From Falsihalocynthiibacter arcticus (lineage in GTDB: Bacteria > Pseudomonadota > Alphaproteobacteria > Rhodobacterales > Rhodobacteraceae): a stretch of 64,000 nt of DNA. Of this stretch, positions 25,920 through 43,108 are shown piece by piece. Position 1 is the first letter of the stretch; every line of letters starts with the position of its first letter. The notes beneath the pieces were generated by a model. It saw nothing but the letters and a program-made list of their open reading frames with translations, did not search any database and was not told where the DNA came from. The DNA lies in the NCBI RefSeq assembly GCF_000812665.2, contig NZ_CP014327.1, positions 620,001-684,000 on the forward strand. Reading direction: 5' to 3'. The position numbers and the translations under genes are program-made.

Positions 25920-27017
25920 ATGGGTTTCAAAATGGGTATCGTCGGAATGCCAAACGTGGGCAAATCCACCTTGTTTAACGCGCTGACAAAAACAGCCGCC
26001 GCGCAGGCCGCGAACTTCCCGTTCTGCACGATTGAGCCAAACGTTGGCGAAGTCGCAGTGCCTGACGCACGCCTTGATAAATTGGCCGCCATTGCAGGTT
26101 CAAAACAAATCATCCCAACACGCATGACCTTCGTTGACATTGCTGGCCTCGTAAAAGGCGCGTCCAAAGGCGAAGGTCTTGGCAACCAGTTCCTCGCCAA
26201 CATCCGCGAATGTGATGCCATTGCGCATGTGTTGCGGTGCTTTGAGGACGACGACATCACCCACGTCGACGGCCGCGTAAATCCTGTCGAAGACGCAGAA
26301 ACCATCGAGACCGAATTGATGTTGGCCGATATGGAAAGCATCGAGAAGCGCCTTCAAGGCCTGCAACGCAAAACGCGCAGCGGCGACAAAGACGCCATTC
26401 AACAAGAACGCTTGCTAAAAGCTGCCCTTGCCGCTCTTGAAGCGGGCAACCCTGCTCGTACCATTAGTGTCGACGAGGACGACGCGCGGGCGTGGTCCCT
26501 CCTTCAACTGCTCACATCCAAACCAATCCTGTATGTATGCAACGTGGAAGAATCCGCGGCTGCTGAGGGGAACGACTTTTCCAAACGCGTCGAGGAAATG
26601 GCTGCGGACCAGGGCGCCGCAACGGTGGTTATCTCTGCCGCGATTGAAGAGGAAATCAGCCAACTCGAAGCCGACGAAGCCGAAATGTTCCTTACAGAAA
26701 TGGGCCTAGAAGAAGCGGGCCTCGATCGCCTGATCCGGGCTGGCTACGCACTCCTCCACCTTAACACCTATTTCACCGTAGGCCCCAAAGAAGCCCGCGC
26801 ATGGACATTTCCCGCCGGAGCCACAGCCCCAAAAGCCGCCGGAGTTATTCACGGCGACTTCGAGAAAGGGTTCATTCGCGCGGAAACCATCGCATTTGAC
26901 GACTTTGTCGCGAACAATGGCGAATCTGGAGCGAAAGAAGCTGGAAAAATGCGCTCAGAGGGCAAGGCCTACCTCGTGAAAGACGGCGACGTCATGCATT
27001 TCCTCTTCAACACTTAA
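25920..27017 (+). CDS. ychF: Redox-regulated ATPase YchF (Obg-family)
   Basis: 365 residues, the usual YchF/OLA1 length. G1 is GMPNVGKST, followed by the YchF-specific [12 protein letters not shown] switch region, G3 [20 protein letters not shown], a coiled-coil insertion ([15 protein letters not shown]...), YVCNVEE in place of the NKxD guanine motif (explaining ATP preference), and a C-terminal TGS domain ending [12 protein letters not shown]. It associates with ribosomes and stress response. GGAG at 25911-25914 supports the ATG at 25920. Confidence 0.95.
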
Positions 27018-27022
27018 ACAAT

Positions 27023-27089
27023 TGCCTTGGTCTATGGAGAGGTCTTCTTGCACTAGTCACGCCAGATGACCTCTCCATAGACCAAGGCA
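27023..27089. repeat. Long perfect inverted repeat after ychF
   Basis: A 22-bp left arm (27023-27044, starting TGCCTTGGTCTATGG) is matched perfectly by its complement at 27068-27089, with a 23-base loop. It begins six bases after the ychF stop codon. There is no T tract, so it may act as an RNA-stabilising 3' hairpin or factor-assisted terminator. A similar object follows the aldehyde dehydrogenase gene at 60898-60950, with unrelated sequence. Confidence 0.8.
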
Positions 27090-27596
27090 TCTAAAAAGTC
27101 ACGAGTTGATCAAGCGAGCAACACCCAAACAACGACGCTCGCATCCCCTCCTCCCTGCGGCACAATGCAATCACCGGGTGTTCCGAAGTGTAAAAGCCCT
27201 ATTTAGTCCCTATTGACCGCTACGCTGAAGGTCCCATTTAAAGCGGTCACAGAAGTTTCAGATACGGATTTGATTTACCCAATTGAAGCACTCTATTGGA
27301 AAACGAGACACAAAGACTTTCTCGAAAATAACCCATTAAGCAACTAAAACAGATCAGAAGAATTAGAAGCAAGAAGCCCTGATTTTAGTTTAAGGTGTTT
27401 ACCCATGGCCCGCTTAAGCTCCCTTGCTTCAGAGCAGAGTTTTTTGAACTCGGGCTCGCAAAAACTCGCACAATTTTTTTATTGTAGAAATAGGGCAAAA
27501 TGGGGAAAATCAACAAAAACAGGAACTTGGCTTCTTTATATTTTTTTTCGAAAAAAGGCTTGTATCTCTAGGGAGTTACGGGCTAAACCGCTCCTC
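27090..27596. other. Intergenic region upstream of tRNA-Ser, no gene seen
   Basis: About 500 bases of AT-rich sequence with several A/T homopolymer runs. A short plus-strand open frame here runs into the tRNA and is not credible. The region must contain the tRNA-Ser promoter, but no clear -35/-10 pair could be assigned. Confidence 0.5.
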
Positions 27597-27686
27597 GGAG
27601 ACGTGGCCGAGTGGTCGAAGGCGCTCCCCTGCTAAGGGAGTAACGGGGTGACTCGTTCGAGGGTTCGAATCCCTTCGTCTCCGCCA
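27597..27686 (+). tRNA. tRNA-Ser (anticodon GCT)
   Basis: The acceptor GGAGACG (27597-27603) pairs with CGTCTCC (27676-27682), followed by the discriminator G and an encoded CCA. The D-arm TGGCCGAGTGG, the anticodon stem-loop CCCCTGCTAAGGGG-like with GCT, a long class II variable arm and the T-loop GGTTCGAATCC are all visible. It reads AGC/AGT serine codons. Its 3' end is the integration site of the downstream island. Confidence 0.97.
27669..27686 (+). other. attL core of the genomic island
   Basis: The 18 bases ATCCCTTCGTCTCCGCCA form the T-arm/acceptor end of tRNA-Ser and recur identically at 39901-39918. Integration at a tRNA 3' end that keeps the tRNA intact is the classic behaviour of tyrosine-integrase islands; the intact tRNA is on this side. 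Confidence 0.9.
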
Positions 27687-28278
27687 CTACCTTTTGAAGT
27701 GGCATTACGTATAAGTTTCAATAACTTAAACTCACCCAAAGACTTCTTCCCACACACGATTACCACACACGCACACCACACACTCACTCAATTTTGGTGT
27801 ACGTGGCTTTGAATCAGAGGTGAGAGCCCCGATCAGACTAGCTTTAGCCAATCAAATGGCTAATTTTCAGTCTTTGTTTTGATTTGGTGGCCCTTTACCG
27901 ACGGATATTACACAGCCACTCAAGGGCACTAATGTCTGCATGGGAAAGCCCCCTGAGAGTGGCCCTGTGTCCCACAGAGAGCAATTTGTGGAAATGATTA
28001 ACCCATCCCTCAATACTGGCCTGAAGGCTTGCAGTGAATTGCCTTTGCTGACTGGCAGTGACAAAAGCTACCCAGCATCTCTCAGGGGATCGACTATGCT
28101 AAGCCATCATTTCCATACCAACATGTTTTTCGGTGGATCGACCCCAAATAAAGCACGAAAGAAAAACCTTCCTCTATACCTCTATACCTCTCAATTAAAG
28201 ATTTTCCCTAGCTCATACTTATTTGCTGTATTTACAAAGGATACCCCCTATCTAGTTAATAGTACTAAGGATTTGCCT
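27687..28278. other. Left end of island, no convincing gene
   Basis: Contains the left arm-type repeat and a short tandem CCTCTATA repeat near 28171-28190. A 126-codon plus-strand frame (27940-28320) overlaps the end of the next gene convergently and has no ribosome-binding site or recognisable motif, so it is not called. Confidence 0.5.
27750..27770 (+). repeat. Left arm-type direct repeat (probable integrase site)
   Basis: A 21-bp element made of CCACACACG, then ATT, then ACCACACAC begins 63 bases inside the left att core. It matches the copy at 39819-39839 at 20 of 21 positions in the same orientation. In the circular form the two would flank the core about 62 bases on each side, as expected for lambda-type arm sites. 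Confidence 0.7.
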
Positions 28279-29685
28279 CTAAAAATCCTCCAAAACATTA
28301 AAGTCAGAATCACAATATAAGCTGTAAAGTTGCTGACCGTGCTGCTGAAGCGCTCTGCCGGAGAGATCATCTGGTCGCTTAGCAAGATCGCTGCAAACCT
28401 GCCCCTCTTCATTCAAAAATGAGATATCTAAGTCAGGTACAAAGCTTAAATTTGTCTCAAGTGATCTCTGCAATGCACATACTGCAAGTACTGCATCCTT
28501 CTGCCTAACGATTAGGGCGTCGTGCATTGGGTATGCTGGAATGCCTTGACCAACCAGATCCAGTATTGCGTCAACAAAGACCTCGGATTCAGCAAACATG
28601 GCACACTTGCCGCTACCTTCTAAACGTCTCATTGTCGGGAATGCTTTGAGAATTTGCGCGATAAGGTCGCCACAAGTTACTTTCTTACTTAACCCATACT
28701 CTTCGCGGATCGAGATTGTCCGTCCGTCAGCCTTCCTGCCTTTTGGGAAAGACGTAATGGCACCACCTGTTGAGACGAATGACGCGACCAAAAACTTGGC
28801 CAATTCCCTCATTTTCGCTTTGCGTTCTTCTCCAACAGCTTTCTTCACAAACTTGATCCGTTGGTATGGATCAGATCCAAGTGACTCCGTCCCTCCAAAC
28901 ATGCCATGACAAATGTTTGGGTAACTTGCCTTCAGATCGATCTCGCAAACAGCTTCTCCTCCGATAGTCATCGCAAGTCGTTGGACTTCTTTGTTGGTTT
29001 GCCAGCTTCCATAAAGCCTGCCCCCAGATTGCAAATTCCCGTTGTTAAAAATCCGCTTAACTGGACCAAACTGAGAGCCGTCAGGACTAATCATCGGAAG
29101 TTTTTTGTTGAGCCTGTTGATTCTTCGTACCTCCGCTGTCAGTTCGTTAATCTGAGGTTCAAACTGGGCTCTGGGAAGTCGTTTCCCTCCGCGTTTCATA
29201 CCACCACTGGCAACTTTAATGCTTCTCACTTCGACCAATGGACCGATCCAATGGAGCTTAAATTTAAGTGATGACAGGGGAATGTGCTTCGTCAGGGAAT
29301 AGATGCTTGCCAGCCCGTCACGCTTTGACGACTTCTGAACCAGCCTTATAAACCCCTTTTCCAGAAGTGCCTCCCTTACGGTCCTAACCACGTTATTTGA
29401 GTAAGGTCCGTCAACAAATTTATCATTCGCGCTGGGCCAAGCGAACAGTCCCGTTTTAGAATCCTGTGCAGCAACCAGAACGTCAGATAGGCAACGGATT
29501 ATCTTTTTCTGTGCATCTGGAGTAGCTCGGGTCAGACAAAGCGTTTCAACTAGGGCCAACACAAACCAGAATGTTGCATCGCCGTCAGGTTCAAAATTAG
29601 TGTGAACAATAGAGTCGGCTTTGTAGAGCTCTCCGAAGTTGTTAGATGTGATTGTTTTAGCGTCAATAAAGCCTGCACCGTCCAT
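28279..29685 (-). CDS. Uncharacterised protein with DNA-polymerase-palm-like motifs
   Basis: 468 residues with no family name I can give. The N-terminal third (about 85-135) looks like a winged helix (VVRTVREALLEKGFIRLV, ASIYSLTKH). The C-terminal half has, in order, GGRLYGSWQ (222-229), EIDLKASYPNI (248-258) resembling polymerase motif A with Asp250, GSDPYQ (270-275), a Lys/Arg-rich helix ERKAKMRELAKF (287-298), and PMHDALIV (386-393) resembling motif C of family A polymerases (His388-Asp389). This arrangement suggests a nucleotidyl-transferase palm used for island replication or repair. The start follows GAAAGGAGAAAG closely. Function is inference; it could be a degenerate or non-polymerase relative. 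Confidence 0.7.
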   Translation of the reverse strand: MDGAGFIDAKTITSNNFGELYKADSIVHTNFEPDGDATFWFVLALVETLCLTRATPDAQKKIIRCLSDVLVAAQDSKTGLFAWPSANDKFVDGPYSNNVVRTVREALLEKGFIRLVQKSSKRDGLASIYSLTKHIPLSSLKFKLHWIGPLVEVRSIKVASGGMKRGGKRLPRAQFEPQINELTAEVRRINRLNKKLPMISPDGSQFGPVKRIFNNGNLQSGGRLYGSWQTNKEVQRLAMTIGGEAVCEIDLKASYPNICHGMFGGTESLGSDPYQRIKFVKKAVGEERKAKMRELAKFLVASFVSTGGAITSFPKGRKADGRTISIREEYGLSKKVTCGDLIAQILKAFPTMRRLEGSGKCAMFAESEVFVDAILDLVGQGIPAYPMHDALIVRQKDAVLAVCALQRSLETNLSFVPDLDISFLNEEGQVCSDLAKRPDDLSGRALQQHGQQLYSLYCDSDFNVLEDF

Positions 29686-30046
29686 AGGTACTTTCTCCTT
29701 TCTAAATTGTTGGGAACACAGAAAACCCCGCTTGGGGTTAAGCCCGAAATCGGGATCTTCTCTGTATGATTAGGGTAGTGTCAAAGTGACGGTTGTAGCG
29801 GCCACGGACCTGCTAGTTTCGTCACCACGTCATGTAGAGATTAGTGTGATGTTTAAATTGCTCTGAACTTGAGCCAGAGAAAGCGTCTGGTCATGAAACG
29901 CTACGATGCTAGATGTCCGCTTTGAGAGGCTGAACTACGGCATTCCAAGCACCAGTTGAGCGGCAAATTTTTGGCCAAACGTTGTTATGTAATAGGCGTA
30001 GCTAGAGATATTTCTGGCCCTCTCCCGAAATCAATAGATCACGGTA
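29686..30046. other. Intergenic region between polymerase-like and recombinase genes
   Basis: No gene seen. It holds the leader of the polymerase-like gene with two adjacent hairpins near 29724-29754. The rest shows no clear signal. Confidence 0.5.
29724..29754 (-). promoter_or_regulatory. Two tandem hairpins in the leader of the polymerase-like gene
   Basis: On the minus strand CCCGA/TCGGG with a 2-base loop (29743-29754) is followed by AACCCC/GGGGTT with a 4-base loop (29724-29739) and then TTCTGT. The second is terminator-like and lies about 40 bases before the start codon, so it may stop read-through from the recombinase gene or attenuate the downstream gene. Confidence 0.5.
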
Positions 30047-30592
30047 TTAGCCCTTTAATGCCCTATAGATTGACCGCTCCGAGACGCCCAGCGCTTTAGC
30101 TACATCCCGCTTACTCACTCCTTCAGCTACCATTTGGCGTATCTCAGGTGTTTGCTGACGTGCTGTCGGCTTTCGGCCCTTGTACTTCCCCTCCCGCTTA
30201 GCCTTGACAATGCCTTCTCTCTGACGTTCCAGCATCATTTCCCGCTCAAACTGAGCTACTGACCCCAGTACGTTCAGCATTAACTTGCCAGTCGCATTTG
30301 AAGTATCCAAGCCAAGATCAACGATCCTCAGCTCAACTCCTGTGGCCTCTAGCTGCTCAACAATTTCCCCAAGATTGCGAACGGAACGGGCCAACCTGTC
30401 AAGCTTGGTGACAACCAATGTATCCCCTTGCCTAGCGTACTCCATAGCGGCTTTTAGCGCCTCTCTGGTGGCCACAGAGCTAACCTGCTCCTCATAGAGC
30501 CTCTCACAGCCAAGGGCCTTCAGTGACTCTCTCTGAGCCTCTATTCCTGCCTTCTGTTCAAGCGTAGATGTTCGTGCATATCCGATAAGCAT
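30047..30592 (-). CDS. Serine recombinase (resolvase/DNA invertase family)
   Basis: 181 residues from the ATG at 30592, which has AAGGAG upstream; an in-frame ATG at 30616 would add eight residues. The N-terminal catalytic domain starts IGYARTSTLEQ with the nucleophilic Ser, followed by the LDRLARSVRNLGEIVEQL and FEREMMLERQREGI motifs. A short C-terminal Hin-type helix-turn-helix ends VSKRDVAKALGVSERSIYRALKG. Such small enzymes resolve dimers or invert segments. No paired crossover site was recognised, so whether it acts on the island is unknown. Confidence 0.93.
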   Translation of the reverse strand: MLIGYARTSTLEQKAGIEAQRESLKALGCERLYEEQVSSVATREALKAAMEYARQGDTLVVTKLDRLARSVRNLGEIVEQLEATGVELRIVDLGLDTSNATGKLMLNVLGSVAQFEREMMLERQREGIVKAKREGKYKGRKPTARQQTPEIRQMVAEGVSKRDVAKALGVSERSIYRALKG

Positions 30593-31065
30593 TTTGCTTT
30601 TCTCCTTGTCTGCCATTGATGTCTAAGATGTTGCGACGGAGTGTCTGCCAAAAGACAAAACCCACTCCATAGTCATGCTATAGCGTCACGGAGAAAGACT
30701 GACATAAGGGCAAGGCCTATTGGCAGCAAAACTACAAGCAGGAAGCAAAGTGTGGCCAGAGAAAGTTGCTTTAAAAACACAGCACGACGCCAACTTATCC
30801 CGTAAAATTACCGTCAGATGATTTGGCTACTTCTAGATCAGATACTGCTTGTTGAAGCTCAACGAAGCTGAAGCCAGAGTGCCAAGCATCTATTGTTTCA
30901 TTTTCCAGAGGGGGGTGGGGGTTGCTGTAAAGCAGTTTCAAAAAATGGGGGTTTTAGTGTTGTTATTCTTGTTACTATAAATCTGATGAGTATCAAGCAA
31001 AAGAAAATTCCTCTGCCCCATTAGTTGCAATCCTGAAATTTGGCCGAAGTTTGCAACCTAAAGTT
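30593..31065. other. Island intergenic region without a called gene
   Basis: Contains G-rich runs near 30911-30953 and a short minus-strand open frame of about 45 codons without ribosome-binding site. Nothing here could be supported as a gene. Confidence 0.45.
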
Positions 31066-31212
31066 TCACTTAGCTCCCTGACTCTGGTAGATTTCTTTGC
31101 TTTTGAGCTTCATCGACATGATAGCTGCTACGGCTTTCTCCCTACGTGACACGGATTTATTGCCTCGCATGCAATTAACGCTAGATTCTTTAGTTCTGTT
31201 GATGGGTTTCAT
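31066..31212 (-). CDS. Small basic protein, 48 residues
   Basis: An ATG at 31212 is preceded by an excellent GGAGGAAG ribosome-binding site at six bases. The reading continues for 48 codons to TGA at 31066-31068. The product is rich in Lys, Arg and Ser, begins MKPINRTKES and contains one probable helix (SRREKAVAAIMSMKLKSKE). No family is recognised. The strong translation signal inside a gene-poor island is the main evidence; it could be a DNA-binding accessory factor such as an excisionase-like protein, but this is a guess. Confidence 0.45.
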   Translation of the reverse strand: MKPINRTKESSVNCMRGNKSVSRREKAVAAIMSMKLKSKEIYQSQGAK

Positions 31213-31971
31213 TAAACTTCCTCCAAATGGTTAATATTTTGGAGATAGACTTCCATTGCCAACTTACTGTTCGTTCAAGGCTCGGTCCTTTGGATCGATC
31301 CACGACAGAACACTCCTCCATTACATAAGGGTTTGGGCAATTGTTGGTTCCTAATCTCCTTGTAAGGCCGTTTGCCGCAACAGAAAAAAGAGAACAATAT
31401 GTGAACTAGAGAACGATCAACGCTCGGGCCATTTTCTAATGGTTATTTTGCATATAGCTTTCTGCAAGATTTCGGTCTTGTTTTTCTTGGAGAGCCAACT
31501 AATTATTTTAGGGAACAGCTCAATTCTTTCAACTGGCTTTATATTCCACCTTTTATATGGCGACGGATATAAAACGCAGTTACAGATTTTTAAGAGTACT
31601 TCCGCTTTCGGCCCAAACCTGCCGTTCGCCCGCCTCGGTCATGCTGCGGTGCAGCCCGTCATTGCGGACTTTCGCCGCAACCGCAAAATCAGTTGATAGA
31701 CGAATTCACAGTTCGCGGGACTAAGCGGCCTCTCAACTTTTCTTCAGTGAGGTCCACTTCCGGCACAAAGTAGTTATTCAAAAAAGGCCTTTAGAGAGCG
31801 GCTTTCTGCGGCTAGCGGACCTTCGGCAGATGTTGGCAAGGGTCCGCTTGGCGAGCATTTCCGCTATCCACTCGCGTGTGTCTGAGCAGTTTCGAAATGC
31901 ACGATCTGAGGCGGGATACCGTGCACCAGTCATCAACCAGCGCACGGTCACTTCGTTAGTCCGAGCCGCTT
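31213..31971. other. Gene-free stretch with decayed sequence
   Basis: Apart from the integrase fragment described separately, the stretch shows only short open frames. One of 85 codons (31439-31696) runs antisense across that fragment and is rejected. The segment near 31600-31850 has alternating CCGC/GCGG-rich patches like other non-coding remnants in this island. Confidence 0.5.
31415..31492 (-). pseudogene. Decayed C-terminal fragment of a tyrosine integrase
   Basis: About 78 bases align, in the same orientation, with the 3' end of the island integrase gene (38547-38623), roughly three quarters identical by eye. The minus-strand reading SKKNKTEILQKAICKIT matches the integrase tail SKGNRIEVLQKAIRKIT at 12 of 17 residues. 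The rest of that gene copy is gone. It marks an old element boundary inside the present island. Confidence 0.65.
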
Positions 31972-33470
31972 CTACTCAACTAATGCGATCTCACCGGGCC
32001 GCCAGGTCTTGTTGATCCAGGGCTCCAGCGGGCCGTACATCCGCAGGATCGTGAACCAGCTCTTACTCGGGACGGTCTGAAGCCAGTTTCCCTCCTTGCC
32101 CTCGGGTGCCTCGGGCGCGAAGTACACGTCATAAGACCCGTCGGCGTTCTTGGTCATGCCCTTGGTCTGGCTGCCGATGGTCGGGAATTTCTGCCCGGTT
32201 TGAAGCAAGGAGCGCGTCTGTGTGTCGTATAGCGTGACAGCCCAGAAATTGTTGACGGGCACATTTGGCGGCAGGCTCAGCTTGTACGTCTTGGACCCAT
32301 CAAGTGGCTTCTTATTGGCATCGAGATAGGCAAGGGCATAGTCGGACCCCTGACCTACAGTCGTGGCCGCCATCGCCTGCGTTACACCGGTCGCATTGAA
32401 GTAAAACAAAACTCGTGCATCAAGACCCATCGCGCCGTTGGCCTCGAAGGTCGTGTTTTTGTTCGCGTAGGCGGTAGTCCAGACGCTGTTCGTATCGGGA
32501 TAAATGAACACGCCATCGATACGTGGCTGGTAGGTGATGGCCCGTGCCGTCGCGTTTCCGATTGTTGCTGCCTCGCTCAACAGCTTCTTCATTCGCGCAT
32601 CGGGGTTGAAGGGCTGACCCTTTACAATGCCAATTGCGGCCAAAAGGCCCCGTGACTCCGGGCCGATTGCGTCGATCGGCTCTTCCTGAACCACGGCGTT
32701 GAGGCCTTCGAAAAAGCTGAAATCATTTGGTGCAATCGTATTGTAGCTCTTGCCGGAGAAGTTGACAAACTCAGTTTCAGGGGGTTTTCAGCTTGCGCCA
32801 GCGGATACACTTTGAGGTTGGACTTGATATTCTCGACCGCGGGTTCAAGCCCCTTCGCGACAGAGCCACGAAGAAAAACCAGATTGCTATATGTATCAGA
32901 TTTGACAACGAAATACCCCTCGGGCACGTCACCTTGGTGATCCGGGGGCAGGAGCAGATATTTTCCGCCTTTGCCTTTGTCGGGCCCGATCGCACCAAGG
33001 TTTTCGACGAACCTGAACCAAGCATCATCGACAAATCCCAACATACCCGGCGGAAGTTCCAAGACAAGCGGGCCTTCCTTCTTCAGGTCGACATAGCCAA
33101 GAGAATAAAGCGTCGAGGTGTTGCCTGTCAGGTACAAGGACTCCGGCTGCAGCAACTGCTCGGTGATTGTAAATTTGTTCGAACTGTCTGCACCGATGCT
33201 GGCATTGCCGGTCCGCATCGCATGAATTGATGCTGCTCCCTGATTGTCGAGGAAAACCTGCAGTGCACGCGACCGATCGAGATTGTCATAGAGTGCATTG
33301 ATAGTAGCGTCGGTAGGGACTCCGTCAAAGAACTCGAGCGAACCGATCGTTGTCTCAATCTTGTCAGGTATGGAGATTGCGTCGAGTTCTTCTTGGGAAA
33401 CCTGCGATACAGCCGGTGTTGACAATAGGACCGAAAGACAGATTCCAAGTGCAGTGGTGGGGCGGATCAT
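31972..33470 (-). pseudogene. DUF1254-family exported protein with a one-base frameshift
   Basis: Two frames, 33470 down to about 32780 and about 32790 down to 31972, join into one protein of about 499 residues. A signal peptide (LGICLSVLLSTPAVS) leads into a DUF1254 domain (NRD-like dealings of VYPLAQAENP) and a C-terminal DUF1214 domain (PPNVPVNNFWAVTLYDTQTRSLL, ILRMYGPLEPWINKTWRPGEIAL). The break is at a five-base G run on the plus strand (32780-32784); one more base restores NPPETEFVNFSGKSYNTIAPNDFSFF. DUF1254/1214 proteins are periplasmic and of unknown biochemical role. AGGAGA precedes the ATG. It may be intact in reality if the homopolymer was miscounted. Confidence 0.82.
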
Positions 33471-33584
33471 TAAATTTCTCCTGTTTCTTATTCGAACAAC
33501 TAACGTTTCGCGGCAACACTAGGCACTCACCAAACTCGAGCAAGGCAAAAGTTGTTTTCACTTGGGCTCCCCACAGCGGTGGGT

Positions 33585-33625
33585 GCGAACATCTTGATTG
33601 GCAAAAATCAAATCAGGATGTTCGC
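33585..33625. repeat. Inverted repeat between the two DUF1254 genes
   Basis: GCGAACATCTTGATT (33585-33599) and AATCAGGATGTTCGC (33611-33625) form a 15-bp stem with one mismatch and an 11-base loop. It lies just past the stop of the upstream DUF1254 gene, so it may act as a transcription terminator for that gene. Confidence 0.6.
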
Positions 33626-33675
33626 TACGCAAGTGTTGGATGTCTCACTTGCGGACAACGAGGCCTTTTCTCTGC

Positions 33676-34698
33676 CTATTTTGCTTTTGGTGTTGGCGGC
33701 CCGGGGAAAGTCCAGGTTCCGTCCTGAATTGATTGTTCGGGTTCATACATACGAACAGCATAGTTCCATCCATCCATGATCGGTAGGCAGTTTTCTACCC
33801 CAGCGCCGCAGCCGCCAAAACGAATGGTAAAGGACCCGTTGCTGTCAGGTTTAGCGGTCAGGTTGTTCAGGCTGTAGGCCTTGAGGCCATTTTCCTGGAA
33901 ATAGCCCTTGGCGTTATAAAGGCTGATTGACCAGAATCCCTTGACCGGCACATCCTTGACGGTGAGTTCGTACTCGCCGACAGGCAAATCTGGCTGCACG
34001 TTCACATAAACTGCGTCCTTGTCCGGCAAGCCGCCCCAAGCCGAGGCTGTTCCGATCATAAAGTGAACCGGATTGACCTCTTCTTTCGAGCCGAAGGTGT
34101 CGATGTAGCGTCCGAGCCCCTTGGCTAGGTCGAGAATTGGCTCAAGCGTCGCCTTGTAACTCGTCTGGTCGTAATCGGGCATGGAAAAAGCGGAATCGGA
34201 CCCGGCGGTTATCTCGATCTTATCCTGAAGCGCGTGGGCTTCGGCGAGATCGGCCTTATCCTCTGGGTTTGCCAGTGTCCGTATGACGAGCCCGACAACG
34301 GGGGTATCGAACTTGTCGACGGTTAGTTTATGAGCGCCGCCGCCGTAGAACACCTCGTTGACGTAGCCATCGTTATTGATGACCATCATCGACATGTAAC
34401 GCTTGCCGGTGTCGGGCAATGTGACGGTCGCGCCTTTGGAGATATCGACCACTCCGAGACTATAAAGCGTGTCACGGTTCATCCGGATGACGTTCTGCTT
34501 GTCGACCGGTGTCGGCGTCCGATTGTGGTGCAGCGTGTTGATACTGCCGGACATCTTGATGATGCCCTCAAATTCCATGTCGGTTTGAGCGCGATCAAAG
34601 TTGTCTACGTTTACCGTGATTGCGTCAGCCGATGCCATCAGTGGCAATGATACGGAAGCAACAGCGGCTGCCAGATAAAGAAGTCTGAGATGCTTCAT
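33676..34698 (-). CDS. DUF1254/DUF1214 domain exported protein
   Basis: 340 residues with a cleavable signal peptide (LYLAAAVASVSLPLMASADA). The N-terminal DUF1254 domain includes NRTPTPVDKQNVIRMNRDTLYSLGVVDI, and the C-terminal DUF1214 domain includes PVKGFWSISLYNAKGYF and a last block DGWNYAVRMYEPEQSIQDGTW. It is a shorter, intact relative of the adjacent frameshifted gene. A Cys pair (GGCGAGVENCLP) could form a disulfide. The family is widespread, periplasmic, and without a settled function. Confidence 0.88.
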   Translation of the reverse strand: MKHLRLLYLAAAVASVSLPLMASADAITVNVDNFDRAQTDMEFEGIIKMSGSINTLHHNRTPTPVDKQNVIRMNRDTLYSLGVVDISKGATVTLPDTGKRYMSMMVINNDGYVNEVFYGGGAHKLTVDKFDTPVVGLVIRTLANPEDKADLAEAHALQDKIEITAGSDSAFSMPDYDQTSYKATLEPILDLAKGLGRYIDTFGSKEEVNPVHFMIGTASAWGGLPDKDAVYVNVQPDLPVGEYELTVKDVPVKGFWSISLYNAKGYFQENGLKAYSLNNLTAKPDSNGSFTIRFGGCGAGVENCLPIMDGWNYAVRMYEPEQSIQDGTWTFPGPPTPKAK

Positions 34699-35092
34699 CG
34701 TCTTAGTAATCCTTTGTTCAGATAGAGAAATTGTATTGCAATTTACGGAGTGAGACCGGTGAGCATCTATCGTGAGGCTTCGGTACCAACTTCACGATAG
34801 GTCTTATTGATCCAATGCTCAAGTAGACCAAACATCCGCAGAATTGGTGAACAGCCCCACCAATGTACGAACTCAAGTGAGTTGTCTGCTTGGGCTCGTT
34901 ACTGCCGTTGGCCGCATCGCCGCAATCCTGCTAAACAGGCTTGATTTGATCGACAGGCCCGGCCCAAACCGGACCTAGCCACATCACGAAGCTAATGGCA
35001 GGTTTGAGCCCATTTTACCGAAATGTTGCAATGCCACAGATGACTAATTTCTTATATATGATCGTGAGTAGTTAGGAGACAGGTTTTTACGC
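34699..35092. other. Intergenic region with a decayed DUF1254 gene tail
   Basis: The minus-strand reading at 34767-34853 gives SPILRMFGLLEHWINKTYREVG, clearly related to the end of the DUF1254 protein at 31972-33470 (ILRMYGPLEPWINKTWRPGE). Nothing else of that copy remains. The last 80 bases include a dispersed repeat (GTTTGAGCCCATTTTACCG near 35002) seen again near 35861. Confidence 0.65.
34767..34853 (-). pseudogene. C-terminal remnant of a third DUF1254/DUF1214 gene
   Basis: About 28 codons end in TAG at 34767-34769 and read LRMFGLLEHWINKTYRE, matching the C-terminus of the neighbouring family members in order and spacing. No start or upstream body is present. It shows that the family was once present in at least three copies on this island. 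Confidence 0.7.
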
Positions 35093-35575
35093 CTATTCTG
35101 CAGAGGCTGCACCTGAAACATATTTTGCGCTAAATGATTTTTCACCGAGACGCTCAATTAGGCTAAGTTGAAGCTCAAGCCAGCTTTTGTGACCCTCTTC
35201 ATCAAGTACAATCTGTTCGAAGAGGGTCCGAGAACCAATGTCACCTACTTTCATCGCATGTTGGGCAGCAAGGGTGTAAAATTGAATTGCTTCTTCCTCG
35301 TCGGCCAAATCAGATTTGAACATATCCACAAGGGATTCGGCTTGAACAGGTTTCTTATAAAAGTCTAAATCAGGCTTTCCGTTGAAGAACATAATTCTTG
35401 CAATATACAAGTCAGAGTGTCCCAACTCTTCTTGCATTTCCACCCGCATCTGGGCTGCAAGTTTATCTAAGCCCCAATCATCAAGAACATGGGAATGTAG
35501 CTGATACTGGTGAGCGGCTGTCAATTCCATATGCAGTGCTTTTTGTAGGTAATTCATTGTTTCGCTGTCGGACAT
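35093..35575 (-). CDS. bfr: Bacterioferritin-like ferroxidase
   Basis: 160 residues of the ferritin-like four-helix type. The di-iron ferroxidase ligands are all present: Glu17, Glu50, His53, Glu93 or Glu94, Glu126 or Glu127 and His129 (motifs MELTAAHQY, EELGHSDLY, DLADEEEAIQFY, LDEEGHKSW). The methionine that binds inter-subunit haem in E. coli Bfr (Met52) corresponds here to Leu51, so haem binding is doubtful. The protein would store iron and detoxify peroxide in the cytoplasm. GGAG precedes the ATG. It is an island-borne copy. Confidence 0.88.
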   Translation of the reverse strand: MSDSETMNYLQKALHMELTAAHQYQLHSHVLDDWGLDKLAAQMRVEMQEELGHSDLYIARIMFFNGKPDLDFYKKPVQAESLVDMFKSDLADEEEAIQFYTLAAQHAMKVGDIGSRTLFEQIVLDEEGHKSWLELQLSLIERLGEKSFSAKYVSGAASAE

Positions 35576-36001
35576 TTTTCAACTCCACTTTCAAAGACCA
35601 AACGCTTTCGTTAGTAGGAACATGATCCAAGCAAATGCACATTGATCTGCATCAAACCTCGCCGGAAGCCGCCGTAGAAATGGCAGCGATCAAATTCTGA
35701 AAACTACTCATAGCAGACAATGGCGCATTACGCAGCGAACGGCTCCTTTCCGCCCTTATGGTAGAAATAGGCGTGATGCAGCAATTTGACCAACTCACTC
35801 GCCCATCAATGACGTGAACGGCTCTTTGCTGACCTTGGTGTCCGTCGCAGCGAATGACTGGTTCGAGCCCAATTTACCGGATGCTACACGCTGCACGAAT
35901 GTCGGCTACCATGGTTAAGCGCTTTACGTTATTGAAAATCTGTCGAGCGTATTCCAGACTATGGGGTGAGCTTAACCCATCTTTTATCAAGGAAAAAATT
36001 G
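35576..36001. other. Intergenic region, no gene seen
   Basis: Only remnants are visible, including GTTCGAGCCCAATTTACCG near 35861 that matches a segment near 35002. The MFS gene promoter must lie at its right end but no clear boxes were found. Confidence 0.45.
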
Positions 36002-37219
36002 ATGAGCCGTGTTGAACGTCTTTCTCTCTATGTCGCGTTGACCGCACTGACTGCTTTCGCGATCGATGGCGTGCTACCGGCAATGCTTATGATAGAAAGT
36101 GCTTTTGACGCAGAATCGTCGTTCTCAGGCGCGCAAATTATTACAGCCTTTGTCTTAGGTATGGCCGTCGGAGAATTAGTAATTGGCCCAATTAGTGATG
36201 CCTTGGGGCGCCGCTCTGCCGTGATTGCAGGGCTTGTAGTGTTCATTATTGGCACAATGGTCGCCGCCACGGCAGAAAACTTTGCGGCGGTAATCGCGGG
36301 GAGGTTGCTTCAGGGTATAGGCGTCGCCGGGCCGAAAATCGGGACACGTGCGATGATCCGGGACCGATATGAAGGCGCTGAAATGGCCAAAATCATGTCG
36401 GTTATTTTCACCTTGCTCATCCTTGTGCCGATGATTGCACCTGCGTTGGGTGCGCTGATCGCTGCGGTCGCTGGATGGCGGGGTGTGTTCTGGTCGTATC
36501 TAACATTGGCGGTAGGGTTGGGCGCATGGCTGTGGCTTCGGCATCCCGAGACGCTGCCTGACGAGAAGCGCGTCCCCCTAAATCCACGTAAGCTGTGGCA
36601 AAATATCCGGAAGATTCTGGTTCGCAACGACGTGATACCGATTGTCATAGCAACCGGTTTCGTCTTCGGTGCACAGCTTACCTATTTTGCTGTGGCTGCA
36701 AACCTTTTTGGCGTGGTTTATGGTGTCTCAGCAATGATGCCCGTGTTTTTTGCACTTCTGGCAACGGGAACAGCATTCGCTCTTATGATGAACGTTTGGC
36801 TGGTTGGGCGCACGGGCATGGAGGCTCCGATTTTCGCAGGCCTATTGGTGTTGGGACTGTCGGGCGCAGGGCTTTTGATTGCCGCCGTACTTTACGCGGG
36901 TCATCCCCCGCTGGCCATTCTGCTTGGCTTAACTTGGTTTGGCTTCTTTGCTCTCGGTCTTTTGTTTGGCAACCTCAATGCGTTTGCGATGCGCCCGCTT
37001 GGTGACTTGGCGGGGCTGGGGGCGTCCATCATTGCATCAGGGTCTAGTCTGGTGGCTTTTGCCTTTGCATCAGCTATAGAAACGGCCTTTGTCGCTCCGG
37101 TTTGGGCCCTCGCGTGGGCGTTTACCCTTGCCGCACCACTGTCGACGTTCTTCATCTTACTCGCAATACCGGCTGGGTCTAGAAAGCAGTTTTTTCAAAC
37201 TATCCGCAGTTGGATGTGA
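36002..37219 (+). CDS. MFS multidrug exporter, Bcr/CflA type
   Basis: 405 residues, about twelve membrane helices. Typical Bcr/CflA features: first helix LSLYVALTALTAFAIDGVLPAM with the acidic residue in helix 1, the loop motif GPISDALGRRSAVIAG, GRLLQGIGVAGPKIGTRAMIRD (motif C-like), and LVPMIAPALGALI. Such proteins expel drugs or small metabolites by proton antiport. The ATG at 36002 follows AAGGAAAAA; an in-frame GTG further upstream is less likely. Substrate unknown. Confidence 0.87.
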   Translation: MSRVERLSLYVALTALTAFAIDGVLPAMLMIESAFDAESSFSGAQIITAFVLGMAVGELVIGPISDALGRRSAVIAGLVVFIIGTMVAATAENFAAVIAGRLLQGIGVAGPKIGTRAMIRDRYEGAEMAKIMSVIFTLLILVPMIAPALGALIAAVAGWRGVFWSYLTLAVGLGAWLWLRHPETLPDEKRVPLNPRKLWQNIRKILVRNDVIPIVIATGFVFGAQLTYFAVAANLFGVVYGVSAMMPVFFALLATGTAFALMMNVWLVGRTGMEAPIFAGLLVLGLSGAGLLIAAVLYAGHPPLAILLGLTWFGFFALGLLFGNLNAFAMRPLGDLAGLGASIIASGSSLVAFAFASAIETAFVAPVWALAWAFTLAAPLSTFFILLAIPAGSRKQFFQTIRSWM

Positions 37220-37385
37220 TCCATTGGACATTTCCAGACACGTTCAGAAACAATGCCTGTATTGATCAAAGCGGTCGTTCACACATCGACAGCAAACGGC
37301 AGCGAAAGTCGGCAAAGAGCCCATACTGACAAATGCCGCGGTGAGGTCGAACGACGGCTATGGGGCAAAGAGGCCTTCGAGAGTG

Positions 37386-37763
37386 TCACGATCCTCCCGT
37401 TAAATCCTCGGCGAGCATGAGAGCGTTACCATCTGGATCATAAAAGGTTGCAGTCTTGACCATGCCTTCCACCACGTCTGTCTCACCGTCAAACTTCACT
37501 TTAGCTTGCTCTAACTTCTGCCGAGCAGCGTCCAGATCGGCGATCCCAAAAACAGGAACACAGTTTCCAGGTGTAGGCTTGGTATGCTCGCCAAGGCCAA
37601 TTGTTACGCCAACGGTGTTCGTTTGGAGCTCTGACCAGCCTGCTTCGTCTGCATGATAGATCGTCTCAAACCCCAGCATACTTTTATACCACTTCGCGCT
37701 TGCGTGGCGGTCTTTAACGGAAAACGCGATATTGATTGTTTTATCCAACGTAATAAGTGCCAT
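37386..37763 (-). CDS. VOC-superfamily (glyoxalase/bleomycin-resistance-like) protein
   Basis: 125 residues forming one vicinal-oxygen-chelate unit of two beta-alpha-beta-beta-beta repeats: NIAFSVKDRHASAKWYKSMLGFE and FYDPDGNALMLAEDL. The start has AAGGAAA just upstream. Members bind metal and act as glyoxalases, dioxygenases or drug-sequestering proteins; the first-strand His ligand is replaced here by Asn (NIAFSV), so metal binding is uncertain. It is divergent from an HxlR-like regulator across only 39 bases, suggesting co-regulation. Confidence 0.82.
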   Translation of the reverse strand: MALITLDKTINIAFSVKDRHASAKWYKSMLGFETIYHADEAGWSELQTNTVGVTIGLGEHTKPTPGNCVPVFGIADLDAARQKLEQAKVKFDGETDVVEGMVKTATFYDPDGNALMLAEDLTGGS

Positions 37764-37802
37764 GAGCTTTCCTTTTGATCCAAAATGCAGTAACTATACT
37801 TT

Positions 37803-38351
37803 ATGGACATAATTTCGTTTGTCAACATTACTTCGAGGGCTTGGGCTTTGCCAATATTATCAAGCCTATACGTCGGTGTGGCAGGGCGTCAGGCGCCGTT
37901 GCTGGCAGCCACTGGCGCGAGCAGAACTGCATTCGCCCAAAGCATGGACCATCTCATCGAGCATGGATTACTGGAAAGAAATCCCGGTTATGGCCACCCG
38001 CTGCGACCAGAGTTTCGTCTTACGCAGCTTGGAAAAGAAGCGGCCGCAATTGCAGATAAAATTCATCGCGTATCTTCTGAAGATGATCAGAGCTTGCTTC
38101 GCAAGTCATGGACTTTGCCGGTGTTAACATCACTTCAAACACCGAGCCACTTCAACGACATCAAGCGAAACTTACACACGATCACTGATCGCGCTTTGTC
38201 ACTGTCATTGAAATCTATGGAGAGTAGAGATTGGGTTCATCGTAGTGTTGACGAATCCGCTCGCCCGCCAAGATCAATTTACAGTGCTATAAATACTGGT
38301 GGAATGATTAGTAAGATCACTGGGTCGAAAATCAGCTTCATCCAACAATGA
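37803..38351 (+). CDS. HxlR-like transcriptional regulator with two winged-helix units
   Basis: 182 residues. The first half (WALPILSSLYVGVAGRQAPLLAATGASRTAFAQSMDHLIEHGLLER) and second half (SWTLPVLTSLQTPSHFNDIKRNLHTITDRALSLSLKSMESRDWVHR) are both winged-helix units; the second is typical HxlR. The tandem arrangement is less common. It probably controls the divergent VOC gene and itself from the 39-base intergenic region. No ribosome-binding site is evident before the ATG. Confidence 0.75.
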   Translation: MDIISFVNITSRAWALPILSSLYVGVAGRQAPLLAATGASRTAFAQSMDHLIEHGLLERNPGYGHPLRPEFRLTQLGKEAAAIADKIHRVSSEDDQSLLRKSWTLPVLTSLQTPSHFNDIKRNLHTITDRALSLSLKSMESRDWVHRSVDESARPPRSIYSAINTGGMISKITGSKISFIQQ

Positions 38352-38529
38352 TAAGAATATCGGCAAAGCAGCCTTTTGCGCATGTGCAGCGAAGGGTAGA
38401 AAAGTCCGCATAGCAGGCCTAAATGTAGAGCGCAGCGAATGTCCGTTCTCCGCCGAAATCGTGAACTTTGAAGGCGGACGTAGCCAACAAGAAAAGGATT
38501 GTACGAGAAAATTGCAAACTCGAAAACAG

Positions 38530-39816
38530 CTAAGAAACCAATAGCAGATCAATGCTCGGATCAATTTCTAGCGTTATTTTGCGGATAGCTTTTTGTAGGA
38601 CTTCGATCCTGTTTCCCTTAGAGTACAATCCATAGGTAAGGGTCTTTTTCTCGTGACCTACGATGTCAGCGGTAACGTTCTCTGGTACACCTGCGTTTTC
38701 AAGCTCCGTGGTGAAGGTCTTGCGAAGACTGTGGAACACAAGCCTTTGGTCAAATCCCAACGCCGACTTAAGCCGTCCAAACCTTTTACCGATAGCATTA
38801 GAACGGTCATCGTATTTATTGAATGACAATCCCGAAATCAAATAGCCATCTGAACTATTGGAGCAGAGATGACGGATCATAGGTGCAAGCCTTGGGTGAA
38901 TTGGAACACTCCTTAACCCAGCCTGTGTCTTGGCATCTTTGACTATAAAAAATTCGACTTCAACATCCGATACTTTGAGGCTGCAAAGCTCCTCAATTCT
39001 GCATCCCGTCCAAATCCCCAACCAGATTAGCTGGGCAAGTTGACAATCTTTTTTGTCCAAGGCTCCAAGCAACAATTTTGGCAAATCTGAAGAAGAAAAA
39101 GCTTGTCGTCTCTCACTTTTTGCCGACTTTGACTTTGTGAGCTTCTTGGGGCCGACCCTATCAAAAACAGTTTCCCTGTCGTGGATGTGGCCTAAGATAT
39201 GTAGGTAATCCCAATACCCACGAGTATGAGAAATAATCCGCCTGACTGTAGGGGGCTTTAATTGATCTCTAATTTGCAAATCGTGCGCCCAATTCAAAAG
39301 TGACTGGCGGTTAACTTGATCAGTGAATTTGAACCTAGTCGCAAAGCGAGTTGCATCGGAGCGCTTCATATCTCGTGTTTTTTCTTGAACTTCCTGCGAC
39401 GCAAGCCAAGCCTCAATATCACGGTCCAGAGGATATGTTTCTCCGTACGCTATCTTTGACATCACCATTGCGGTTGGGTTTTTTTTTAACGCTATGGCTT
39501 GAAGGTCGTCGTCAATAATTGACTGTATGGTAAACTTTTCGTTCTCTGAGTGCTGGGCATTACATATACCGTCACGCCACACTAACGCTTTAGCGACATA
39601 ATCAGACTCTACAAACCCTCCGTCACCCCTTGCTGCAGAGATTAGATCTTTCCAGTCGGCAACCACGCGAAGCACACGGGTCTCAGCCACTGACAGGCTT
39701 TCGGTCTCGAGACTCTGAACAAAACGAGGGCTGCCGCCAAACTTTTGACGAACGTCTTTGGGTATTTCTAGAACCGCATACCAGCGACGCCGACGTTTTT
39801 GAAGGTATTTTGCCAT
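38530..39816 (-). CDS. Tyrosine integrase of the island
   Basis: 428 residues. N-terminal DUF6538-like arm-binding region (YLQKRRRRWYAVLEIPKDVRQKF), core-binding domain in the middle, and a C-terminal catalytic domain with Arg in TGCRIEELCSL, the HSLRKTF box (His and Arg), the second His in DIVGHEKKTLTYGLYSKG and Tyr in TYGLYSKG. The ATG at 39816 is used; a GTG at 39822 is also in frame. The gene's 5' end lies 85 bases from the right att core and its leader overlaps the right arm-type repeat, so Int may repress its own synthesis. It is most likely the enzyme that moved the island. Confidence 0.92.
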   Translation of the reverse strand: MAKYLQKRRRRWYAVLEIPKDVRQKFGGSPRFVQSLETESLSVAETRVLRVVADWKDLISAARGDGGFVESDYVAKALVWRDGICNAQHSENEKFTIQSIIDDDLQAIALKKNPTAMVMSKIAYGETYPLDRDIEAWLASQEVQEKTRDMKRSDATRFATRFKFTDQVNRQSLLNWAHDLQIRDQLKPPTVRRIISHTRGYWDYLHILGHIHDRETVFDRVGPKKLTKSKSAKSERRQAFSSSDLPKLLLGALDKKDCQLAQLIWLGIWTGCRIEELCSLKVSDVEVEFFIVKDAKTQAGLRSVPIHPRLAPMIRHLCSNSSDGYLISGLSFNKYDDRSNAIGKRFGRLKSALGFDQRLVFHSLRKTFTTELENAGVPENVTADIVGHEKKTLTYGLYSKGNRIEVLQKAIRKITLEIDPSIDLLLVS

Positions 39817-39818
39817 TT

Positions 39819-39839
39819 CCACACACGTTTACCACACAC
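39819..39839 (+). repeat. Right arm-type direct repeat overlapping the integrase leader
   Basis: CCACACACG, TTT, ACCACACAC: 20 of 21 positions equal to the element at 27750-27770, same orientation, ending 61 bases before the right att core. It lies immediately upstream of the integrase ATG, in the position of the ribosome-binding site. Confidence 0.7.
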
Positions 39840-39900
39840 ATGACGGAGAATTATCCCTTAAAATCAGTGAGTTCAATAGGTTAAATGCGAATGGCGACTC

Positions 39901-39918
39901 ATCCCTTCGTCTCCGCCA
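39901..39918 (+). other. attR core of the genomic island
   Basis: ATCCCTTCGTCTCCGCCA repeats the last 18 bases of tRNA-Ser including CCA, without any other tRNA part. The identity stops on both sides, which defines the crossover region. Confidence 0.9.
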
Positions 39919-40007
39919 GAAACCTCCCTTTGATTTTCAGATAACTATATGAAAACAAAGGGATTTCTGTATTTTCACACGCACCTAAATCTATTTGGAG
40001 TGCCATT

Positions 40008-40039
40008 TGCTGCACTTTTTGCTGCACAATGTGCTGCAC
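40008..40039 (+). repeat. Three phased TGCTGCAC repeats before second integrase
   Basis: TGCTGCAC occurs at 40008-40015, 40020-40027 and 40032-40039, exactly 12 bases apart, 42 bases before the integrase ATG. The regular spacing suggests a bound protein array such as integrase arm sites or an operator. Confidence 0.65.
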
Positions 40040-40080
40040 AAATCCTTGTAGAAACGGGGCGGCCCTGCTAGTCACGTGCA

Positions 40081-41349
40081 ATGAAGCTGATCCTGCGCAA
40101 CACCACCTATTATATCCGAAAACGCGTTCCGCAGCGCTTCTCGTCCGTGGAGCCTCGCCAAACAGTCTGGGTGAGCTTGCACACAGATTCAGAAAAAATT
40201 GCCGCGACAAAGGCTTCGGCCGCGTGGGCGGAGATGATCGAAGCTTGGGAAGCAAGGCTAGCGGGGCATTCGGAGGATGCCGAGCGGCGATTTGAGGCCG
40301 CGCGTGAACTCGCCCAAGCCCGAGGCTTTCGGTATCTTCCTGCCAAACAAGTATCTGCCTTGCCGAACGAGGCGCTGCTTGAGCGTGTGGAGGCGATCCG
40401 CAGTGTGAATGGGAAGCCCGACAAACTTGACGCTGGCGCGTTCCTCGGAGGCGCCTCAGAGCCTCGCCTGACCGTGCAGCGCGCCCTTGATCTGTATTGG
40501 TCGCTGACCAAAGATAAGACTTTCGGAAAATCAGATGACCAGCTCCGACGCTGGCGCAACCCGCGCCTTAAAGCTGTGCGAAATTTCATCGACGTTGTAG
40601 GTGACAAAGTAATTCCCGAGATTACCGGTGACGATATGCTCGATTTCCGCCAATGGTGGATAGATCGGATCGAGGCCGAGGGTCTTACGCCGAATTCCGC
40701 CAACAAAGATTTAATCCACCTATCGGATATTCTGAAAACCGTAAACCGGATGAAGCGGTTGGGCTTGGTGCTTCCTCTGAGTGATTTGTTGTTGCAAGAG
40801 GGTGAGAAACGCCAACGTCCACCATTTTCCAGCGACTGGATAACGGGGCGGCTCTTGAAGGCAGGAGCCTTGGATGGACTTAACAAAGAGGCACGTTGTA
40901 TCTTACTTGGGATGGTGAATACCGGCTACCGCCCAAGTGAAGGTGCTGGGCTCGGACCAGCACAAATTCGGCTAGATACCACGGTTCCGCACGTCTCGAT
41001 TGAACCCAATGGGCGGCAGCTCAAAAGCGCCTATTCGCGCCGCATTATTCCGCTGGCGGGCGTGAGTCTTGAGGCTTTTCGTGAATGCCCTGAGGGGTTC
41101 CCACGGTATGCGGACAATCCTTCGCTTTCAGCTACAGTAAATAAGTTCCTCCGCGAAAATAGGCTTTTAGAAACACCCGGTCATAGCCTTTACAGCTTGC
41201 GGCACGCATTCGAGGACCGAATGCTGGCGGCAGGCGTGGATGATAGGATTCGCCGCGATCTTTTCGGGCACAGACTTGACCGTGAACGCTATGGGCGTGG
41301 GGCGAGTCTCGAGCAACTACACCAAATTGTTCAAAGCATAGCATTCTGA
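40081..41349 (+). CDS. Second DUF6538-type tyrosine integrase
   Basis: 422 residues. N-terminal DUF6538 segment (LRNTTYYIRKRVPQRFSSVEPRQTVWVSL), core-binding domain (AVRNFIDVVGDKVIPEITGDDMLDFRQWW) and catalytic domain with Arg in NTGYRPSEGAGLG, HSLYSLRHAFEDR, the second His in FGHRLDRERYG and the Tyr of RYGRG. It is a full-length, apparently intact enzyme reading away from the attR of the first island. It probably belongs to a second element in tandem at the same site, or is a relic; no third copy of the att core was noticed in the window. Confidence 0.9.
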   Translation: MKLILRNTTYYIRKRVPQRFSSVEPRQTVWVSLHTDSEKIAATKASAAWAEMIEAWEARLAGHSEDAERRFEAARELAQARGFRYLPAKQVSALPNEALLERVEAIRSVNGKPDKLDAGAFLGGASEPRLTVQRALDLYWSLTKDKTFGKSDDQLRRWRNPRLKAVRNFIDVVGDKVIPEITGDDMLDFRQWWIDRIEAEGLTPNSANKDLIHLSDILKTVNRMKRLGLVLPLSDLLLQEGEKRQRPPFSSDWITGRLLKAGALDGLNKEARCILLGMVNTGYRPSEGAGLGPAQIRLDTTVPHVSIEPNGRQLKSAYSRRIIPLAGVSLEAFRECPEGFPRYADNPSLSATVNKFLRENRLLETPGHSLYSLRHAFEDRMLAAGVDDRIRRDLFGHRLDRERYGRGASLEQLHQIVQSIAF

Positions 41350-41522
41350 GTGGCAAGTACCGCGCGAGCATAAGCCACAGCATCTCCCTTATCTTTCACC
41401 TCGGCAGCCGCGAGTTCGGCTTCCAGCCGTTTAAATATCGGCAGGTAAACGACGTCATCCACCACGAGCTTTGCAACTGTGGCATGGGCAGTGCGTAATC
41501 TCTGTAACTCGCTTTTGGCCAT
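41331..41522 (-). CDS. Small hypothetical protein, 63 residues
   Basis: The frame runs from an ATG at 41522 to a stop inside the 3' end of the integrase gene (19-base convergent overlap). The product is helical and charged (SELQRLRTAHATVAKLV, FKRLEAELAAAEVKDKGDAVAYARAVL), like small alphaproteobacterial proteins of unknown role. The ribosome-binding site is weak. It is kept as plausible rather than certain. Confidence 0.45.
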   Translation of the reverse strand: MAKSELQRLRTAHATVAKLVVDDVVYLPIFKRLEAELAAAEVKDKGDAVAYARAVLATQNAML

Positions 41523-41623
41523 GACGTTTTTGGGGTTTCTATCTGCGATTTGGCTTTGCCGACAGGCAAGCCTTCTTGGCCCGGCGAACCAGTTGTGGGA
41601 ATGTAAACTTTGGTGGTTAGAGT

Positions 41624-42262: not shown

Positions 42263-42357
42263 AACGAATACTCCATGTGAGGTTATTGAATGTATATAGT
42301 TGACTGACAGTTTTGCAAAGCAAAAAGTGCACAGCAAAATATGGAATGCTGAATTGC

Positions 42358-43070: not shown

Positions 43071-43108
43071 CCCCCTCCAAACACAGTTTTACTGAAAGGA
43101 ACGAAGCC

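Follow-up and report, generated by a model that had tools for sequence, protein, structure and literature searches.

A TV-Pol-type family A polymerase on a tRNA-Ser island of Falsihalocynthiibacter arcticus and its probable role in island replication

A 12.2-kb island inserted at a tRNA-Ser gene of Falsihalocynthiibacter arcticus encodes a 468-aa protein that is probably the replication enzyme of the island, a polymerase of the TV-Pol type with a winged-helix-like N-terminal domain. The polymerase fold, the conserved catalytic residues, the core and arm-type repeats, the integrase and the resolvase were all obtained computationally; from these, we infer that the polymerase primes and replicates the island. 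The window referred to throughout is the whole stretch of 64,000 nucleotides that was analysed.

The polymerase gene and its invariant residues

The initial annotation had placed a protein at 28279-29685 and read a polymerase-like motif order from it. The frame was borne out as one of 468 codons on the minus strand, with an ATG start and an AAGGAG ribosome-binding site 9 bases upstream. It encodes, in the order given, the segments GRLYGSWQ (R223), EIDLKASYPNI (D250), SDPYQ (D272), the Lys/Arg helix (R293xxxK297) and MHDALIV (D389). The gene and its parts are listed below.

28279..29685, minus strand: TV-Pol-type family A polymerase, 468 aa, ATG start (predicted from sequence and model)
29182..29685, minus strand: N-terminal domain, residues 1-168, winged-helix-like topology (model pLDDT 82.7; weak fold matches)
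28396..29172, minus strand: polymerase core, residues 172-430 (VIA-align Z up to 13.5; most rows cover about 145-430)
29017..29019, minus strand: R223, hairpin arginine (GRLYG), 51/51
28936..28938, minus strand: D250, predicted motif A catalytic aspartate, 51/51, aligned to the motif A Asp of Pol I
28921..28923, minus strand: Y255, aligned with the motif A Glu of Pol I
28795..28809, minus strand: R293xxxK297, fingers motif, 51/51
28519..28524, minus strand: H388-D389, motif C, 50/50, aligned to HDE of Pol I

Through homology searches, 52 distinct family sequences were collected, for which the informative test was the pattern of positions that never vary. R211, R223, R236, D250, R293 and K297 were invariant in all 51 sequences reaching the position, and H388 and D389 in all 50 that did so. 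The fingers residue D272 was an aspartate in 51 of the 52, with a serine in the truncated L046. Three truncated sequences do not reach the position of one of the catalytic aspartates, D250 or D389. The position equivalent to Y255 varied across 51 sequences (His in 32, Gln in 6, Tyr in 5). The motif A glutamate of Pol I is a steric gate, and in the family B motif DxxSLYPSI, which the motif A segment DLKASYPNI resembles, the tyrosine gates sugars.

Predicted fold

An AlphaFold2 model built from 35 sequences (pLDDT 88.2, pTM 0.83) placed strands at residues 244-251, 385-387 and 390-394, forming a palm with the two aspartates, and its secondary structure included one long helix, residues 178-195, ahead of the hairpin. 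In the fold search that had been called for, Foldseek ranked family A DNA polymerases first (Taq, Bst, the apicoplast polymerase and Pol theta), with Taq Pol I as the best match (E = 3.1e-5), TM-scores of about 0.3 and a large rmsd. When Foldseek's own top 1000 were re-examined with VIA-align, the best 50 rows (Z 13.5-12.0) were all family A DNA polymerases or mitochondrial RNA polymerases, led by yeast mitochondrial RNA polymerase (Z 13.5, 226 residues, 3.4 A) and the apicoplast polymerase (Z 13.1, 239 residues, 4.0 A), with Bst, Taq and Pol nu at Z 12.8. Predicted phage proteins of 400-450 aa matched over 435-478 columns, with E down to 1.5e-19 and TM-scores of 0.45-0.60; among the 11 best of these, one was named DNA polymerase and the rest were uncharacterised or unnamed.

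Profile comparisons pointed in the same direction. Against PDB sequences, the top match of the family profile was DNA polymerase nu, at a weak E = 0.061, while mitochondrial RNA polymerase scored E = 1.8 and an unrelated protein E = 1.6; the Pol nu and mitochondrial RNA polymerase matches were nevertheless in register on motif A/fingers and motif C. A profile-profile comparison with a Pol I alignment (the host and seven relatives) gave E = 8.8e-5 and a probability of 60%, and aligned D250 and D389 with the Pol I catalytic aspartates and Y255 with the motif A glutamate. A single-protein search against PDB sequences returned two matches (E 0.18 and 0.36), which were not credible and were set aside.

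The earlier reading of a family A palm with D250 and D389 as putative catalytic residues was thus upheld, as the predicted fold contains a palm and the relatives keep both aspartates wherever their sequences reach them. By sequence and model, membership of family A, within the Pol I / T7 RNA polymerase superfamily, is well supported. A plain Pol I was dropped as a reading, given the lack of a Pfam DNA_pol_A match, the 16% identity and the failure to find an exonuclease domain.

The same annotation had proposed a winged helix ahead of the palm. Residues 1-168, modelled alone, followed the order helix, helix, strand, helix, strand, strand, which agrees with that proposal, although the fold search backed it only weakly (best E = 0.07, Z at most 6.0). 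The matches included Rep-DNA complex, initiator and DnaD entries, the regulators CodY, Fur and MarR, and some ribosomal and cullin chains; most of these are winged helices. They support the modelled winged-helix topology and do not speak for any particular function.

The tRNA-Ser island

The gene had been described as lying alone with a recombinase, but the island extends to 39918 and also carries an integrase and cargo genes. Bounded at 27687-39918, it begins at the 3′ end of the tRNA-Ser gene, and its G+C content is 49.0% versus 53.6% to its left in the window. The polymerase gene is indeed the largest on the island so bounded, at 468 aa versus 430 and 417 aa for the next two products. The features of the island are as follows.

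27597..27686, plus strand: tRNA-Ser(gct), insertion target
27669..27686, plus strand: attL core, 3′ end of the tRNA gene, ATCCCTTCGTCTCCGCCA
39901..39918, plus strand: attR core, exact 18-bp copy of the tRNA 3′ end
27750..27770, plus strand: left arm-type repeat, CCACACACGATTACCACACAC, CACACAC units at 27751, 27764 and 27777 (13-bp spacing)
39819..39839, plus strand: right arm-type repeat, CCACACACGTTTACCACACAC, CACACAC units at 39820 and 39833 (13-bp spacing)
30047..30616, minus strand: small serine recombinase of the gamma-delta resolvase type, 189 aa (PF00239, E = 4.6e-40; HTH_7)
31972..33470, minus strand: cargo, DUF1254/DUF1214 gene split over two frames
33676..34698, minus strand: cargo, intact DUF1254-DUF1214 protein
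35093..35575, minus strand: cargo, ferritin-like protein (PF00210)
35966..37219, plus strand: cargo, MFS transporter (PF07690)
37803..38351, plus strand: cargo, HxlR-like regulator (PF01638)
38530..39822, minus strand: tyrosine integrase of the island, 430 aa (PF00589, E = 4.6e-17; DUF6538), 78 bp from attR

With up to one mismatch allowed, the 18-bp core has just two copies in the genome (4.38 Mb), and its reversed control was absent. Just inside both ends lies a 21-bp repeat whose two copies differ by one base, which arose in none of 100 shuffles; five of the seven plus-strand CACACAC units of the window belong to it, three on the left and two on the right. Short spaced repeats just inside the core copies are the layout of integrase arm sites. 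The repeat was spotted on reading the island ends and tested afterwards, since a search with a 12-base seed, in which the longest direct repeat within 27400-44500 was 21 nt, had missed it. Because the exact tRNA-end copy, the integrase and the shared 21-bp repeats occur together, the polymerase gene can be assigned to a bounded integrative island.

Among island ORFs of at least 130 aa, Pfam identified neither a helicase nor an SSB. On the strand of the polymerase, the only ORF downstream is one of 65 aa (27867-28064) with no match. No clear origin stood out beside the polymerase gene, and direct repeats of about 200 nt, as in the Brucella element, were absent from 26900-33500. Two further observations concern the interior of the island. 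Between 31972 and 33470, DUF1254 and DUF1214 are encoded in two separate, overlapping frames, and this copy looks frameshifted relative to the intact gene that follows. A stretch of about 100 bases at 31605-31711 recurs at two other places in the genome, one match being only 60 bases long, and one of the recurrences adjoins a tyrosine integrase.

Just past attR, a second integrase (40081-41349) is followed by a further integrase-like gene (42489-43070), within 39919-43070 of the window. In a congener, an island also occupies the same ychF-tRNA-Ser site; its first integrase shares 37% identity with the 40081 integrase, and no TV-Pol was found in that genome. The window therefore probably holds two tandem islands at a hot spot, the first of which the congener lacks.

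Relatives in genomes, phages and other islands

As a single query, the polymerase went unmatched in Pfam, NCBIfam and PADLOC even with E allowed to reach 10, and its single PHROGs match was phrog_4756 (PHROG_4756), whose function is unassigned there (E = 1.6e-20, residues 172-402). PF00476 (DNA_pol_A) matched none of 20 family members at E up to 1, and PF00940 (RNA_pol) matched two of the 20, with a best E of 0.2. A single-protein search of viral contigs yielded four stretches that fitted a pattern, none of which was a relative.

Counting the genome itself, relatives occurred in 17 of the 198 genomes sampled in the same taxonomic family and, with profile A1, in 19 of 289 genomes of the class. 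Genome contigs contributed 15 loci (alignment A2), mostly from Rhodobacterales going by record title, among them the closest relative, 39% identical, in a Rhodobacter MAG; viral contigs contributed 36 loci (alignment A3, a sub-group of relatives that excludes the window protein). Relatives were also present on two plasmids and in 63 phage records, 60 of them Vibrio phages, including ICP1 with its ORF100. Alignment A1 comprised 16 of 24 non-self places and three further loci, leaving out L011, L014, L015, L019 and L022-L025 as short, contig-end or extra copies, several of which have the same motifs. Alignment A6 comprised 34 of 51 loci, the remaining 17 being fragments or set aside as redundant.

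ORF100 of the lytic phage ICP1 is annotated as hypothetical (L028:5008-6675) and carries the invariant polymerase residues of the TV-Pol-type family. By tblastn it matched at E 8e-5 to 9e-5 in ICP1 records, over residues 211-398 only; its E = 5e-94 against profile A1 arises by construction, as it is a member of A1. The F. arcticus genome itself holds a second, truncated TV-Pol (G000:C1:3805819-3806364; L127:3835-4371), a 178-aa carboxy half with motifs A to C; among the resolvases found on that contig, the closest to it lies at a distance of 320 kb.

The linkage to a resolvase recurs among the relatives. At a tblastn threshold of E up to 1e-6, resolvase homologues lay within about 1 kb of the polymerase ORF at L008 (69% identical), L098, L002/L047 (one place), L004/L048, L043 and L055, and farther away at L027 and L058; L042 has a more distant resolvase homologue (PF00239). 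A PF00239 match occurred within 4 kb in 9 of 35 polymerase places from 25 genomes, whereas resolvase counts and rounded genome sizes would predict 0.31. Of the 35 genomes in which a match had been obtained, 25 entered this survey, and two fragments beside listed places (in G314 and G301) were omitted; in the remaining 26 places, some of them cut by a contig end, no resolvase lay within 4 kb. Read by eye, an integrase was present within 4 kb in at least 9 of the 35.

Six of the 17 loci scanned for tRNAs have a tRNA together with a TV-Pol, or seven counting the window. In four of these seven (the window, L042, L128 and L129), the polymerase gene lies between the tRNA end and a second copy of it, 17 to 61 bp long. 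The closest relative, L042, has a tRNA-Gly, an integrase, a resolvase and the polymerase inside 6.2 kb, while L128:3438-12663 and L129:879-8778 are tRNA-Cys islands that combine a TV-Pol and a tRNA-adjacent integrase with genes for type I restriction-modification or a DNA methylase. The profile search for relatives on other islands thus found the closest relative and two others in the same type of island. L043, L044 and L027 each have a tRNA close to the polymerase, but no copy of the tRNA end was found there, and in L043 and L044 the stretch stops shortly past the polymerase. The search was likewise negative at L126 and with the second tRNA of L042.

Two other leads were discarded. A co-operonic partner gene was not supported, as the ORFs upstream in L044, L050 and L052 have no real mutual similarity, and the IS21 genes by the Thioclava copy do not support transposition, since they look like an insertion cutting the gene (326 aa left).

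Comparison with TV-Pol and other known polymerases

The TV-Pols, or transposon/virus polymerases, were described in 2008 by Iyer, Abhiman and Aravind (PMC2579912). They are defined by an arginine that is absolutely conserved on a beta-hairpin, an RRM-like palm bearing two catalytic aspartates, fingers that pair a conserved Asp with RxxxK, and a thumb built of two antiparallel helices (PMC2579912). Their reported neighbours are a resolvase, a lambda-type integrase or a transposase, their hosts include roseobacters, and they were proposed to replicate mobile elements, the resolvase-linked ones during transposition (PMC2579912). The island protein has the hairpin arginine (R223, 51/51), the palm with two aspartates, the fingers Asp with RxxxK and a recombinase-bearing mobile element around it; it shares with the TV-Pols the minimal family A core in which no nuclease domain was found, the gamma-delta resolvase or lambda-type integrase neighbours and the roseobacter hosts. 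The view that it belonged to no recognised family and would be new therefore had to be given up, and CCPol, a related polymerase of mobile elements, has already been assayed (PMC7581432); the data fit a new member of TV-Pol and not a new kind of polymerase. The N-terminal domain, however, models as winged-helix-like, with helices and strands, whereas PMC2579912 predicts an all-helical domain for the resolvase-linked subset. Furthermore, D5-linked TV-Pols have a helicase, while Pfam found none on this island, and the defined tRNA att ends seen here are undescribed in the main text of PMC2579912.

A direct comparison was made with a named TV-Pol carrier, the Microcystis phage Ma-LMM01. Of its 199 ORFs with a length of 100 aa or more, the same one, next to a transposase, scored best with both profiles, though weakly (E = 0.0096 and 0.024); this ORF would be the TV-Pol of PMC2579912. 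A search of the Ma-LMM01 genome with profile A1 gave no match.

In PMC11348598, the PolA enzymes of small viruses are given the name TV-Pol. Together with its partner MP, CCPol synthesises DNA primers de novo (PMC7581432), and related PolA-SSB pairs are widespread in Bacillota (PMC10061031). The CCPol-MP and PolA-SSB systems of SCC-type islands share with the present protein a family A polymerase on a mobile island with a serine recombinase near (PMC7581432, PMC10061031), although primer synthesis was shown for CCPol-MP (PMC7581432) and is predicted here. CCPol differs in being close to Pol I (PMC7581432, PMC10061031); the partial exonuclease domain that it retains, its OB-fold partner and its adjacent helicase were not found here. 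The PolA-SSB gene order of polymerase, OB-fold protein and helicase is absent, and a resolvase precedes the polymerase instead.

PHROG_4756, with ICP1 ORF100, resembles the island protein by profile and tblastn but is a phage gene of unassigned function. Bacterial DNA polymerase I has the polymerase fold and motifs A and C in common with it, yet the two are 16% identical over 166 aligned columns, the exonuclease domain was not found here, and the motif A Glu is replaced by Tyr.

Proposed role and alternative explanations

In the mechanism that we propose, the integrase would excise the island as a circle, the N-terminal domain would bind an island sequence, the polymerase would prime and extend DNA on the circle with host factors, and the resolvase would resolve multimers of the copied circle. 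Since the element has an integrase already, its small resolvase is most easily accounted for by multi-copy circles, and host proteins would be needed because Pfam revealed neither a helicase nor an SSB on the island. A replication or repair polymerase for an excised island and a defence enzyme had both been thought conceivable; replication has become the best-supported role, at the level of inference, while the defence reading gained no match in PADLOC.

The resolvase beside the gene also suits replicative transposition as modelled in 2008, in which polymerase and resolvase would copy the element while it transposes (PMC2579912). The island ends, however, are a duplicated tRNA 3′ end next to a tyrosine integrase, which indicates site-specific integration, and tRNA-end repeats enclose the gene in three relatives too, so that we consider transposition unlikely. 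We judge it similarly improbable that the enzyme fills gaps or repairs DNA at integration and excision, or in the host, with the island not being replicated: its standalone form and the lack of an island helicase or SSB by Pfam agree with such a role, but family members also occur in phage genomes, and the assayed relative is a primase-polymerase (PMC7581432).

An anti-phage enzyme at an integration hot spot would account for the tRNA site, which holds a different island in the congener, and for the restriction-modification genes of the related islands L128 and L129. With no PADLOC match and with relatives in phages such as ICP1, this is very unlikely. A decaying remnant, intact in frame and without a present role, is brought to mind by the 178-aa TV-Pol remnant elsewhere in the genome and the frameshifted cargo gene nearby, yet the polymerase is full length, with a ribosome-binding site, all catalytic residues and a high-confidence fold, and we give this reading hardly any credence.

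Replication of the excised island by its own TV-Pol may also be taken further, to a bolder and doubtful version. One protein could be the origin binder, primase and replicase of small tRNA-inserted alphaproteobacterial islands, its winged helix reading the origin, its palm priming unaided by an OB-fold partner or an island-encoded helicase, and its motif A Tyr acting as the sugar gate. If true, family A would thereby have a self-contained equivalent of piPolB, the primer-independent polymerase of mobile elements.

For the family as a whole, a group of phage and island proteins that is missing from Pfam, NCBIfam and PADLOC and unassigned in PHROGs now has a predicted function. In the portions of the literature available to us, no description of a tRNA-bounded TV-Pol island was found under TV-Pol or variant names. 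The physical ends of such an island are now defined by the tRNA core repeats and arm-type repeats, together with its integrase and resolvase. With these ends in hand, the 2008 proposal of TV-Pol replication becomes directly testable, as the circle, its copy number and its priming can be measured.
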